Below are positions 35,799 through 41,290 of a DNA stretch of 64,000 nucleotides, piece after piece. Numbering within the stretch: the first letter of the stretch is position 1; every line of letters begins with the position of its first letter. A program made the translations under genes and the position numbers. A model generated the notes under the pieces. That model did not search any database, was not told the DNA's origin, and saw only the letters and a list, made by a program, of their open reading frames with translations. This DNA is from Nitrosococcus wardiae (GTDB taxonomy: Bacteria; Pseudomonadota; Gammaproteobacteria; Nitrosococcales; Nitrosococcaceae), in NCBI RefSeq assembly GCF_004421105.1, contig NZ_CP038033.1, positions 1,817,659-1,881,658 on the forward strand. The letters are read 5' to 3'.

Positions 35799-36497
35799 TT
35801 AAGAATTCTGAATCTCTGCTTCAATCCTTTCAAGGGCCGCCATTGGATCAGGAGCCCCGGTGATGGGCCGGCCAATGACCAGGTAATCAGCCCCTCTGGC
35901 TAAGGCTTCCCGTGGTGTCAGTACCCGCTGTTGATCTCCTGGAGCGGTGCCGGCAGGCCGAATCCCTGGGGTGACTAGTAAAAATGGGGGTTCCAGAATC
36001 TGGCGGAGTGCCGAGGCCTCCTGACCAGAGCAGACCACGCCATCCAGTCCTGCTTCCTGGGTAAGGCGGGCAAGTCGCAATACATTTTCCTCTGGAGTTC
36101 CGGCCAATCCTATTTGTCTTAATGCCGTCTGCTCCATGCTGGTTAAGACAGTGACGGCGATTAGCAACGGGCGGGAGGAGAGCTTGGCCAGCGCTTCCTG
36201 GGCTGCCTGCATCATGGACAGTCCTCCCAGGGCATGAACATTGAGCATCCATACCCCTAAATCGGCTGCCGCAAGACAGGCACGGGCGACCGTATGGGGA
36301 ATATCATTGAATTTTAAATCGAGAAATATGGAGAAGCCCTGGTCGGCGAGGCATTCAACCAAGCCGGGACCGGCGCGGGTGAATAACTCCTTACCCACTT
36401 TCAGCCGGCACCGGGCAGGATCAAGTTGACGGGAAAGATTTAGTGCTTGCTCTGCATGGGGATAATCCAAGGCAATGATAATACGGGATTCTTCCAT
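35799..36497 (-). CDS. pyrF: orotidine 5'-phosphate decarboxylase
   Basis: PyrF catalyses the last step of UMP synthesis. The 232-residue protein has the complete active site: Asp11 in ALDYP and the D-x-K-x-x-D cluster at 59-64 (DLKFND), then TPGIRP and the [12 protein letters not shown] phosphate-binding segment near the C-terminus. The ATG at 36497 has GGAGA seven bases upstream and was preferred to one ten codons earlier. It is a single gene convergent with fliK and has no functional link with flagella. Confidence 0.96.
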
Positions 36498-36796
36498 GGT
36501 GTTCTCCAGTGACTTATAATCCTGCAATTTTAATGGGTTTCTTTATGGGCGCGGTACCGTCATCGTTGTCAGCCATAATATCCGGGTGCGACGGGGATAT
36601 GCCCCTCAGGCCTTTCTGAACGACTCGGATTTGTGAGGTTGATCATAGGCATCCGGAAAATGGGGCGTAGGCCCTCACTGAGTTTAAGTTCCTCTTTCAG
36701 TGGGGCATCGTCATTTTAAACCGAGCGCTCAGCATTTTTGCCATTGGAATAACGGGCACCATTGCCTATCTTTACCTGACATTAGCCGAAAAGAAC

Positions 36797-37753
36797 TTGC
36801 GTGATAGTGAAGTGCGCTTCCAAAGTATCGCCAGTCATCTGCCCGGCTATATTTTCCGGCGTGTGCGCACGGCAGAGAATTGCTTTAAGTATGAATATAT
36901 CAGTGGCTCGGTGCATACGCTATTTGGATTAGAACCGCAAGCGCTGATAACCAATCCCTCGCTTTGGTGGCGGCTCCTCCCGCCCGAAGATCAAAAGGTC
37001 TTTACGGAGGCCCTGGAACGTTCGGCTCAGGAACTCAGCCCCTTAGATCAAGAGTACCGGATTCAATTAGCCAATGGGCAGATTCGCTGGATGCGCAGCA
37101 TGGCTCATCCCTATCTTCATCTTCGGAATGAGAATGAAGTCTATTGGGATGGGGTTGGGTTGGATGTGACCACGCAAAAGTACACCGAGAGCCAACTCAA
37201 TTATCTCGCTTATCATCATTCCCTGACGAATCTGCCGAATCGAAAGCTGTTTGAAGATCGCCTACAACAAGCGGTGGCTCAAGCTCAACGAGGGAATCAT
37301 GCTTTTGCCTTACATTATTTGGATCTGGACGATTTCAAAGCCATCAATGATACTCAAGGACACCATCTCGGCGATGCGCTGCTTAAGGTCGTCGGTGAGC
37401 GGCTACGCCGAAAGGTGCGTCAAAGCGATACGGTGGCCCGGCTAGGAGGGGATGAATTTGCGGTGATCCAAGGAGATCTCTCCCAGCCCTTTCACCTGGA
37501 AGGAAAAACCCTTCATGTGAGTGTCAGCGATGGGATTGCGCTCTATCCAGAATTGGCAGAAGCAGCTCCTTCAAGAGCGGTGCTTGAGGTCGATGGAGGG
37601 GAGTTATTGAAGTGGGCCGATATTGCCCTGTATGAGGCCAAGCAGGCTGGCCGAGATACCTTTTGCTTCTACCGCCAAGGTATGGAGCTTCCAACCCAAA
37701 GGCGGGTGACCTTGCGAGAGGCCCTGCATCAAGCCTTTCCGCGTGGCCGTTAA
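36797..37753 (+). CDS. PAS-GGDEF diguanylate cyclase, 5'-truncated and missing its EAL domain
   Basis: The 318-residue frame contains a PAS domain (about 5-130, with EYRIQLANGQIRWMRSMAHP) and a GGDEF domain (about 145-300). The latter has DLDDFKAINDTQGHHLGD, the catalytic GGDEF preceded by RLxx, and the RxxD inhibitory site RQSD five residues before it, so c-di-GMP synthesis is possible. Only a TTG (36797) is available as start. The frame is open back to 36671 without ATG, GTG or TTG and encodes a membrane-like segment (ALSIFAIGITGTIAYLYLTL) before AEKNLRDSEVRF. This looks like the lost front of a membrane sensor. The C-terminus ends abruptly at LREALHQAFPRGR, where an EAL domain would begin; an EAL fragment continues in another frame. 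Confidence 0.78.
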   Translation: MRDSEVRFQSIASHLPGYIFRRVRTAENCFKYEYISGSVHTLFGLEPQALITNPSLWWRLLPPEDQKVFTEALERSAQELSPLDQEYRIQLANGQIRWMRSMAHPYLHLRNENEVYWDGVGLDVTTQKYTESQLNYLAYHHSLTNLPNRKLFEDRLQQAVAQAQRGNHAFALHYLDLDDFKAINDTQGHHLGDALLKVVGERLRRKVRQSDTVARLGGDEFAVIQGDLSQPFHLEGKTLHVSVSDGIALYPELAEAAPSRAVLEVDGGELLKWADIALYEAKQAGRDTFCFYRQGMELPTQRRVTLREALHQAFPRGR

Positions 37754-37903
37754 TATTTCAGCTTTCCAAATTCGCCGCAGTCCTCTTATTGATACTATCC
37801 GAAAAGTCTTGGGAGACACTGGCCTTGAGCCCGGTTGTCTTGAATTAGAACTGACCGAAAGTACTCTCGCCATTCATTTTGAGGAAATGATCTGCTCTCA
37901 AGG
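37741..37903 (+). pseudogene. fragment of a c-di-GMP phosphodiesterase EAL domain
   Basis: About 54 codons match the middle of an EAL domain: RVAVNISAFQIRRSPLIDTI followed by VLGDTGLEPGCLELELTES. The leading EAL motif and the later DDFGTG metal site are both absent, so it cannot be an active phosphodiesterase. It is out of frame with the preceding GGDEF gene, and its 3' end is joined in frame to the KaiC-like gene. A GTG at 37743 overlaps the GGDEF stop and could start translation by coupling. Confidence 0.82.
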
Positions 37904-39573
37904 GGAAATACCTCGGGGCAGAACGACGGTGGTTATTGGCGGACCCGGGGCAGGTAAAACGGTTTTTGCGCTCCAAACCGCTGTCAATGGTATTCGACAA
38001 TGGGGAGAACCAGCCATTTTTGTCTCCTTTGAAGAGGCCTCGAGCCGAATCCGAACCTATATGCGCCATTTTACTTGGGAGAGTGAGACCTTATCTGAAT
38101 GGGAGCTGTGTTTTGTGGATGCCCGTCTGCCGCCAGATGCCGTTCAGTCAGGGAGTTTCGATCTGCTGGGTCTATTAACGATGGTGCACGCCAAAGCTCG
38201 AGAAATTCGTGCTCGCCGGGTTATTATCGATGGGATCGATGCCCTGCTGAGTCTGCTGGAAAATGCGGCCCAGGAACAAGGCGAATTACTCCGGCTGCAG
38301 CAATGGATGGAAAGTGATGAACTGACCTGTCTCATGACCAGTAAGACCTTATTCGCCAATCCGCGCCATAGGCAACGCTACGAATTTCTCAATTACTTAT
38401 CGGATTGCCTCATTATGCTGGAGAGCGAGGTCCATAGAAGCCTGCATTCACGCACCCTTCACATTGCCAAGTACCGGGGCTCGGGGTATTTGACGAATAA
38501 ATTTCCGGCTCTCATCAATACAACCGGATTCAATGTGGTCGTGGCTGGTACTTTGGAACTGAGTTATCCAGTCTATGAGGAGCGGGTCTCCTCCGGGATT
38601 GGACGCTTGGATGATTTACTTCGTGGCGGATATATCCAGGGGTCGAGTATCCTGGTCTCTGGTTCGCCGGGGACAGCCAAGACCACCTTAGGGGCCGCGT
38701 TTGCGGAATCGGCCTGCCAGCGGGGTGAGACGGTGGTCTTGGTGAGCTTTGATGAGGGTAGCGAGCGCATTGTCGCCAATATGCGCTCTATTGGGATCGA
38801 ACTTGGCCAGTCAGGCCATTTACAGATCGCCTCGTTGCGTGCTGGTAACTACAGCCCTGAAGCGCATTATGTGGCTATCCACCAATTAATTTTGGAAAGA
38901 GCGCCTCGTTTCCTCATCCTGGATCCTATTTCTGCTCTCCTGGGAAAAGGCTATCTGTTTGGTGAAGAAATCTGTGGTGATTTATTGGTGTTTGCCAAAT
39001 CCCGTGGGATCACTTTGCTTTGCACCTCTTTGTTGGAGGATACGGCCCACCAAGAGGAAAGCACCGCCAGCCGTATTTCCACCATGGCGGATACCTGGAT
39101 CCACCTCGCTTACCTAGCCCGGGGGGGGAGCGTAATCGCACCCTGACCATTGTCAAATCCCGAGGCACGGGCCACTCCAATCAAGTGCGTGAGCTGGTGC
39201 TTACCGATCAAGGCGTGCAGTTAGTCGATGTCTATAGTGCTGAAGGGGAGGTGCTTTTGGGTTCGGCCCGGGCGCAAAAAGAGATGCAGGATCAACGGAA
39301 GCAGGCGGCCAATCGGGTTCAGTACCAGCAACAGCTCTTTGAATTAGAAAAAGCGAAGCGGAATTGACGGCCCGGCTAGAGGTTTTACAGCGGGAATTGG
39401 ATGGGACACGCAGACAGCGTCGACTGCTCATTGAGGAGGAATCGGATCGGGTCGAATATGAGCACTGGGCTGAAGGGGAGCGGCGGCGGTTGCGGCAACC
39501 TAAGGAGGGGGGGATTTTTGATGAGGCGTTTAGAAGATCATTCTTTAGCGGGTCTGGAGTCGGTACAGAATAA
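37743..39573 (+). pseudogene. kaiC: KaiC-like RecA-family ATPase, N-terminally fused to an EAL fragment and frameshifted
   Basis: KaiC is a double RecA-fold ATPase/autokinase of clock systems. After the EAL fragment the sequence enters KaiC at GEIPRGR, lacking the first strand of the CI domain. The CI Walker A GGPGAGKT is at 66-73, with the catalytic Glu pair in SFEE (97-98). The CII Walker A GSPGTAKT is near 307-314. The neighbouring Ser-Thr phosphorylation-site pair is at about 446-447 (ISTMADTW). The frame ends at 39146, just after an eight-G run (39121-39128). The missing C-terminus continues in the -1 frame (RNRTLTIVKSRGTGHSNQVR) to about 39360. It then continues in a third frame (ELTARLEVLQRELDG) to 39573. 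One extra base at each site would restore a single frame. It is probably a decaying gene. Confidence 0.82.
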
Positions 39574-39910
39574 AAATGGCTACGGACAGGAAAAAGAGGA
39601 TGAGAAAGTGAGTCTAGATAGTCGTTATCCGTCTTCAGAAGAGACCAGTCCCAGGCGATTAAGACTATACATTGCGGGCGAAACGCCGAACTCGGTACGA
39701 GCGCAAAAAAATCTGCGTCAGGTGCTCAACCAGTTAGGGCGGTCTTGCTATACGGTGGAAGTCATTGATGTCTTTAAAGCGCCCCAGCGGGCTTTAGAAG
39801 ATCGGGTCATTGTGACTCCGACGTTACTCTATTGTGCTGTGCAACCTCCACGGCGACTCGTCGGTAATCTCAGCGATGGCAGGGCTTTAGAGGCTTTTTT
39901 AGAATTATAG
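39521..39910 (+). CDS. kaiB: KaiB-like protein
   Basis: KaiB is the small thioredoxin-like, fold-switching partner of KaiC. The 129-residue product has a charged N-terminal extension of about 45 residues. The KaiB core follows: RLRLYIAGETPNSVRAQKNL, the YTVEVIDVFKAPQRALED segment, VIVTPTLL and RRLVGNLSD. All core strands appear intact, in contrast to the adjacent kaiC. The ATG at 39521 has GGAGGGGGG about nine bases upstream and overlaps the end of the kaiC frame. Proteobacterial kaiBC pairs often serve stress or light responses rather than a true circadian clock; the role here is unknown. Confidence 0.85.
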   Translation: MRRLEDHSLAGLESVQNKNGYGQEKEDEKVSLDSRYPSSEETSPRRLRLYIAGETPNSVRAQKNLRQVLNQLGRSCYTVEVIDVFKAPQRALEDRVIVTPTLLYCAVQPPRRLVGNLSDGRALEAFLEL

Positions 39911-40081
39911 GAAGTGGCTGAACAGTAGGTTAGAGATCTCCAGGGCCAGTGCGGGATGACTAAAGCATCGCCGTGATTTTCCTGGTCGACGCCAATCTGC
40001 GCCTGGTCTCCCTCAGTCTCAGACCGATACTGCCAAAGATGCGTTCCAAGACGGGTCTGCCAACCCTAGCCGTAGCAGTAG

Positions 40082-41290
<1,209 letters not shown>

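Follow-up and report, generated by a model that had tools for sequence, protein, structure and literature searches.

What is the cluster of broken reading frames between pyrF and tgt of Nitrosococcus wardiae, and did its pieces ever work together? The cluster lies in a 64,000-nucleotide stretch of the genome, hereafter called the window (G000:C1:1817659-1881658; the genome is one contig of 4,022,640 bases), and consists of plus-strand coding remnants: a PAS-GGDEF open reading frame (ORF), a scrap of an EAL domain joined to kaiC, an extension of kaiC, and kaiB. We propose, with a probability of about 0.82, that these are the remains of a KaiBC hourglass-type module with an upstream membrane-bound PAS-GGDEF-EAL enzyme, which was inserted in this species at the pyrF-tgt gap and decayed afterwards. 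Judged from the sequence, this is the most likely explanation, and it is supported by the insertion, the truncations and frame breaks, the clade of the KaiC protein, the absence of KaiA, the linkage of kai loci to GGDEF genes, and the recurrence of the same gene order elsewhere. As such a fossil, the locus represents a type of module already known, not a new system, and this copy is dead in most of its parts.

What is left of each gene? A reading of the DNA letters alone, hereafter the sequence-only reading, had described a 5′-truncated PAS-GGDEF gene, a chimeric and frameshifted kaiC, and an intact kaiB. The ORFs and Pfam matches agree with this description, and the motifs that it listed, namely GGDEF and RxxD (RQSD, the I-site) in the PAS-GGDEF ORF, the two Walker A motifs and the Ser-Thr pair (RISTMADT) in kaiC, and the KaiB core, are present. 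The PAS-GGDEF ORF matches PAS_3 (3.3e-15) and GGDEF (6.9e-36), and the GGDEF, KaiC, and KaiB matches are far beyond chance at such strength. The earliest ATG, GTG, or TTG codon of this ORF is a TTG at 36797, located 3′ of a hydrophobic stretch that, by eye, is a putative membrane segment. The gene was said to have lost both its start and its EAL half; the start is indeed missing, while a piece of about 45-50 residues of the EAL domain survives, fused to kaiC. This remnant corresponds to residues 8-60 of ORF 37710-39146 (E 0.00023, under the Pfam curated cut-off), covers only profile positions 83-135 of 236, and is 29-56% identical to genes of kai loci. Moreover, the decay is deeper than had been described: in the alignments to the two best-scoring relatives in the set, about 17 residues are gone right after GGDEFAVI. 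The whole GGDEF domain expected of an active enzyme is thereby absent despite the retained motifs, as is an EAL domain with its EAL and DDFGTG motifs.

ORF 37710-39146 encodes two KaiC domains (Pfam 2.1e-63) 3′ of the EAL remnant, as expected of an hourglass KaiC. It lacks the first conserved stretch of CI (TGI...D), and keeps 40 of the 49 columns that are conserved in at least 90% of the rows (median 98% across 38 rows), the absent N-terminus accounting for four of the nine misses. The C-terminal extension is spread over three frames, with breaks near a G8 run (39121) and near 39350. The codons following DTW number 157 when read through the third frame and 88 with the second frame only, as compared to 143-173 in five relatives; the third-frame part has no Pfam match, and no tblastn match beyond its own locus. 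With the N-terminus gone and the extension split, no complete translatable KaiC with a C-terminal extension, as in an hourglass, is encoded. Could the gene nevertheless be alive as an EAL-KaiC fusion, its breaks being due to errors in the sequencing or to a homopolymer tract that can switch? The positions of the breaks, at the G8 run and near a short A run, would suit such an explanation, as would the retained Walker A motifs, Ser-Thr pair, and conserved columns. We consider it very improbable, since no single-base error accounts for the absence of the first CI stretch and of most of the EAL domain, and the flanking pyrF and tgt align to the congener G001 without frame breaks. Because of the truncations, the internal deletion, and the frame breaks, the GGDEF-EAL gene and kaiC cannot work as encoded; neither a diguanylate cyclase, nor a phosphodiesterase, nor a KaiC can be produced whole from the locus in its present form, and KaiB alone could still be made.

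Table. Features between and around pyrF and tgt, in window positions.
Feature	Positions	Strand	Basis or remarks
pyrF, left flank	35799..36497	-	intact; start at 36497; 71-91% identity in four relatives
Inserted segment between pyrF and tgt, 3.56 kb	36541..40102	.	blastn homology gap versus congeners
PAS-GGDEF ORF, 5′-truncated, GGDEF domain internally deleted, pseudogene	36671..37753	+	Pfam, alignments
EAL remnant, in a frame other than the GGDEF ORF, in-frame fusion to kaiC	37740..37871	+	Pfam EAL
kaiC core, from first ATG; without N-terminus; CI and CII present; ends at G8 run	37887..39146	+	
kaiC C-terminal extension, second frame	39119..39367	+	42-75% identity to other KaiC extensions
Distal kaiC C-terminal extension, third frame, overlaps kaiB start	39343..39573	+	assigned by position and length
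kaiB, intact ORF, 129 codons	39521..39910	+	Pfam KaiB 5.6e-18; AAGGAGG 5′ of ATG
tgt, right flank	40175..41290	+	intact; 6 of 6 genomes

How did these pieces come to lie between pyrF and tgt? In blastn comparisons of the window, the homology to G001 ends at 36540 and restarts at 40103, and that to two other congeners (G002 and G003) ends at 36516 and restarts at 40110. The two genes are separated by about 200 bases in G002 and G003, and by about 140 in G004, from the same family. KaiB is present in one of 39 genomes, the window's own, where there are two copies, and in none of the 38 relatives. Against the rest of its own genome, the segment gives a single 150-base match with 67% identity, in a stretch encoding another GGDEF protein, and no close relative on plasmids exists among 262 records, all matches being below 60% identity and the best among those listed 36%. 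In G001, the pyrF-tgt gap measures 3.1 kb and has no nucleotide similarity to the segment in the window. The insert of about 3 kb there occupies the same site (L030 6710-9606), and its ORFs, read by eye, presumably represent a regulator of the antitoxin type, a transposase, and a nucleotidyltransferase pair. Insertions may thus favour the pyrF-tgt gap as a hotspot. The comparison does not support an old link to the neighbouring flagellar cluster, as three congeners lack the inserted segment. The genes beyond pyrF that were called flagellar are at the same place in the congeners, so that the closeness of the Kai genes to them is incidental. An ancestral association with the flagellar cluster was rejected, since the relatives have no such genes at the site.

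From what kind of Kai system did the genes derive? In a tree of 39 KaiC rows, the window KaiC falls on a long branch within a 15-row clade (support 100/100); in the approximately unbiased (AU) test, its grouping with 16 rows of the upstream-type clade gave p 0.2. The nearest relative is from an Archangium metagenome-assembled genome (45% identity), and no closer KaiC was found in 398 genomes of the phylum (E up to 1e-60, four candidates scored each), where the maximum was 38%, the window itself aside. Among the solved structures, the KaiC of Rhodobacter sphaeroides is the nearest (8DB3/8DBA, 253/252 bits), followed by 8zn5 (222 bits), 8jon (195), and that of Synechococcus elongatus (1TF7, 185). 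The KaiA profile PF07688 has no match in the N. wardiae genome, and it detected KaiA in S. elongatus among 14 controls. The R. sphaeroides KaiBC is a KaiA-less hourglass, in which a C-terminal coiled coil joins two KaiC hexamers (PMC10076222). The window kaiB adjoins kaiC, as in an hourglass module.

At the site in CII that follows the second Walker A motif, the window KaiC has Asp-Glu (FDE), as compared to Glu-Glu in most other KaiC proteins of the set. Within its clade, FDE is likewise found in L025, L026, L079, L085, L086, L089, L091, L092, and L094, while L027, L028, L077, and L084 have other residues at this site, and L080 has a gap.

Is the adjacency of GGDEF and kai genes accidental? 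Among the 28 kai loci counted in Gammaproteobacteria, a GGDEF ORF lies within 1 kb of 16, with 0.49 expected (P ~5e-22 if the loci are independent; related genomes are not fully so). The 28 loci comprise 27 from the class draw and the second locus of the N. wardiae genome. The expected value derives from the GGDEF density of each genome, with genome sizes rounded; the distances are those between stop-to-stop ORFs, and the neighbours were classified by a custom GGDEF profile and motif expressions, not by Pfam. The linked neighbour is on the same strand in 14 of the 16 cases, and on the opposite strand in two (L086 and L091). Four of the 32 listed loci (L083, L088, L090, and L093) had neither KaiC nor KaiB by BLAST and were uncounted, and some counted loci had one Kai protein by BLAST: KaiB only in L067 and L072, and KaiC only in L082 and L089. 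Outside the count, another draw supplied the gammaproteobacterial L094, with an adjacent GGDEF ORF, and L095, with none in its stretch. The loci fetched cover a minority of 38 KaiB genomes in one listing, and leave aside several weak KaiB places in another. The linkage in Gammaproteobacteria is real and far above chance, and is already published for downstream genes: nearly all non-cyanobacterial kaiC-kaiB clusters are described as having a histidine kinase or GGDEF/EAL gene directly downstream (PMC3164672, 2011).

The order itself also recurs. The sequence-only reading proposed a search for the PAS-GGDEF-EAL, kaiC, kaiB order in related genomes, and non-adjacency would have counted against it; the order GGDEF-EAL, kaiC, kaiB is intact, on one strand, in 13 loci of other Gammaproteobacteria. 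Four of them came from a first sample (L085, L089, L092, and L094, the KaiB of L089 being detected by the Pfam profile and not by BLAST), and nine from the 15 loci of a second (L104-L110, L112, and L113; L104 and L105 belong to one genome). These 15, together with L084 from earlier, make up the 16 of 21 KaiC places examined. We found no report of this upstream order in the open-licence literature, as searched by titles and the starts of abstracts. The suggestion of an ancestral linkage between Kai proteins and cyclic di-GMP (c-di-GMP) thus holds with respect to adjacency, given the 16 of 28 loci; the accompanying idea that the locus is being rebuilt was rejected, as every change found is a loss and no gain was seen.

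Which GGDEF-EAL protein occupies the upstream place? A tree was built from 26 GGDEF-EAL rows, all from genes of the fetched kai loci; in it, 12 of the 13 upstream proteins and the second L089 copy form a group with 100/100 support on a long stem. Its members are from L089, L092, L094, L104-L110, L112, and L113, and represent five gammaproteobacterial families (f141, f156, f167, f186, and f258). The L085 upstream protein falls elsewhere, outside this group, and the upstream place was therefore filled at least twice in the set. Membership of the window GGDEF in the 13-row family was not rejected by the AU test (p 0.103, with the domain shortened and 42% of the columns filled). Grouping all of the upstream rows, including L085, with the window gave p 8.5e-5, and the 13 upstream rows alone gave p 3.6e-32; the former value does not decide the membership of the window, because L085, itself outside, was in the tested set. 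We tentatively suggest, at somewhat under even odds, that a dedicated upstream GGDEF-EAL family wires KaiA-less KaiBC to c-di-GMP, that the window has the same layout with possibly a different GGDEF-EAL protein, and that the link evolved more than once. It would have more than one origin because the upstream place in L085 is filled from another GGDEF-EAL lineage.

Several observations weigh against a decayed KaiBC module that arrived with its enzyme. No mobile element, edge repeats, or foreign G+C content were seen at the inserted segment, so that the argument for horizontal arrival is one of presence and absence alone. We did not find this particular module in intact form, and can thus only infer its ancestral state: the best KaiC match is the 45% noted above, and the best match to PAS plus GGDEF is 43% over residues 50-337, while the GGDEF part alone reaches up to 54% (369 genomes of the class, up to five candidates scored each). 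The linkage to GGDEF genes is not general across kai loci, as none of the seven loci fetched from other classes (L096-L102) has a GGDEF ORF in its stretch. Of five further loci, L029 alone has such an ORF, on the opposite strand at a distance of about 1.7 kb. In addition, the window GGDEF lies outside the upstream group in the tree (split 100/100), a placement that is not firm. Finally, sequencing errors are possible for the two kaiC breaks, because both are at or near short homopolymers, though not for the truncations.

Some of these points would also fit a chance gathering of three unrelated fragments while the region decayed. The position of the window GGDEF in the tree is consistent with this, as is the best PAS-plus-GGDEF match, a gene not adjoining kaiB (in G177, it is on a different contig from kaiB), and the pyrF-tgt gap of G001 has also received an unrelated insert. 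However, all of the fragments are on one strand and within one insertion, and their order is found again in intact operons; the GGDEF linkage of gammaproteobacterial kai loci and the unrejected membership in the dedicated family (p-AU 0.10) further oppose it. We regard such a gathering as highly unlikely.

Does any part of the locus still function? The N. wardiae genome contains a second, intact kaiC-kaiB-histidine kinase locus on the minus strand, about 0.53 Mb away (G000:C1:2387059-2391114; L015 7060-11115). A kaiC-kaiB-kinase operon is described in Bradyrhizobium (PMC3899966). The KaiB of the window might still be made and act on the intact KaiC of the second locus, having been kept for this function. 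In its favour, the window kaiB is an intact ORF with AAGGAGG before its ATG, and keeps 13 of the 14 columns that 75% or more of the rows conserve (median 93% across 64 KaiB rows). Nevertheless, the intact locus has a kaiB of its own, with which the window KaiB shares 39% identity over 83 residues, and its KaiC belongs to a different clade from the window KaiC. A short gene such as kaiB may also remain open by chance soon after decay, and the promoter-like sites in the segment are at the background level (three versus 3.2 expected; terminator-like sites, one versus 4.2 expected). We consider a retained function unlikely. As side observations, the genome has five two-domain KaiC-like genes, including the broken kaiC of the window, and the second locus is also species-specific in the sample, because searches of three congeners yielded no KaiB.

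We thus return to the decayed module, and propose that its ancestor worked as follows. It would have arrived by horizontal transfer. Its KaiC would have undergone a cycle of Ser/Thr phosphorylation following the ATP/ADP ratio, and its KaiB would have bound to KaiC and reset it. Considering the operon linkage, the GGDEF-EAL protein may have been an input or output partner of KaiBC.

By itself, a pseudogene cluster in one species is of low interest; the intact operons are of moderate interest. The intact GGDEF-EAL, kaiC, kaiB operons allow a direct test of a possible control of c-di-GMP levels by a KaiBC timer without KaiA. The connection is timely, because c-di-GMP is reported to shift the cyanobacterial clock via factors as yet unidentified (PMC13001216, 2026).

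How does the locus compare with known systems? It resembles the gammaproteobacterial GGDEF-EAL, kaiC, kaiB operons in gene order and strand, while those operons are intact and 12 of their 13 GGDEF-EAL proteins belong to one family. The kai operon of Legionella presumably also has a GGDEF/EAL neighbour. The Legionella KaiB Lpp1115 (4kun) is a homologue of the window KaiB (33 bits). Like the non-cyanobacterial kaiC-kaiB clusters, as presented in PMC3164672, the locus has adjacent kaiC and kaiB on one strand, a c-di-GMP neighbour, and the Ser-Thr pair in CII; here the locus is decayed, and the c-di-GMP gene is upstream, whereas it is directly downstream of kaiC or kaiB there. The R. sphaeroides hourglass (PMC10076222; 8DBA, 8DB3), the best solved match, shares with it an extended KaiC, KaiB, and the lack of KaiA. 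In contrast to that system, the window KaiC is broken, has Asp-Glu in place of Glu-Glu at the FDE/FEE position in CII, and has no adjoining kinase gene.

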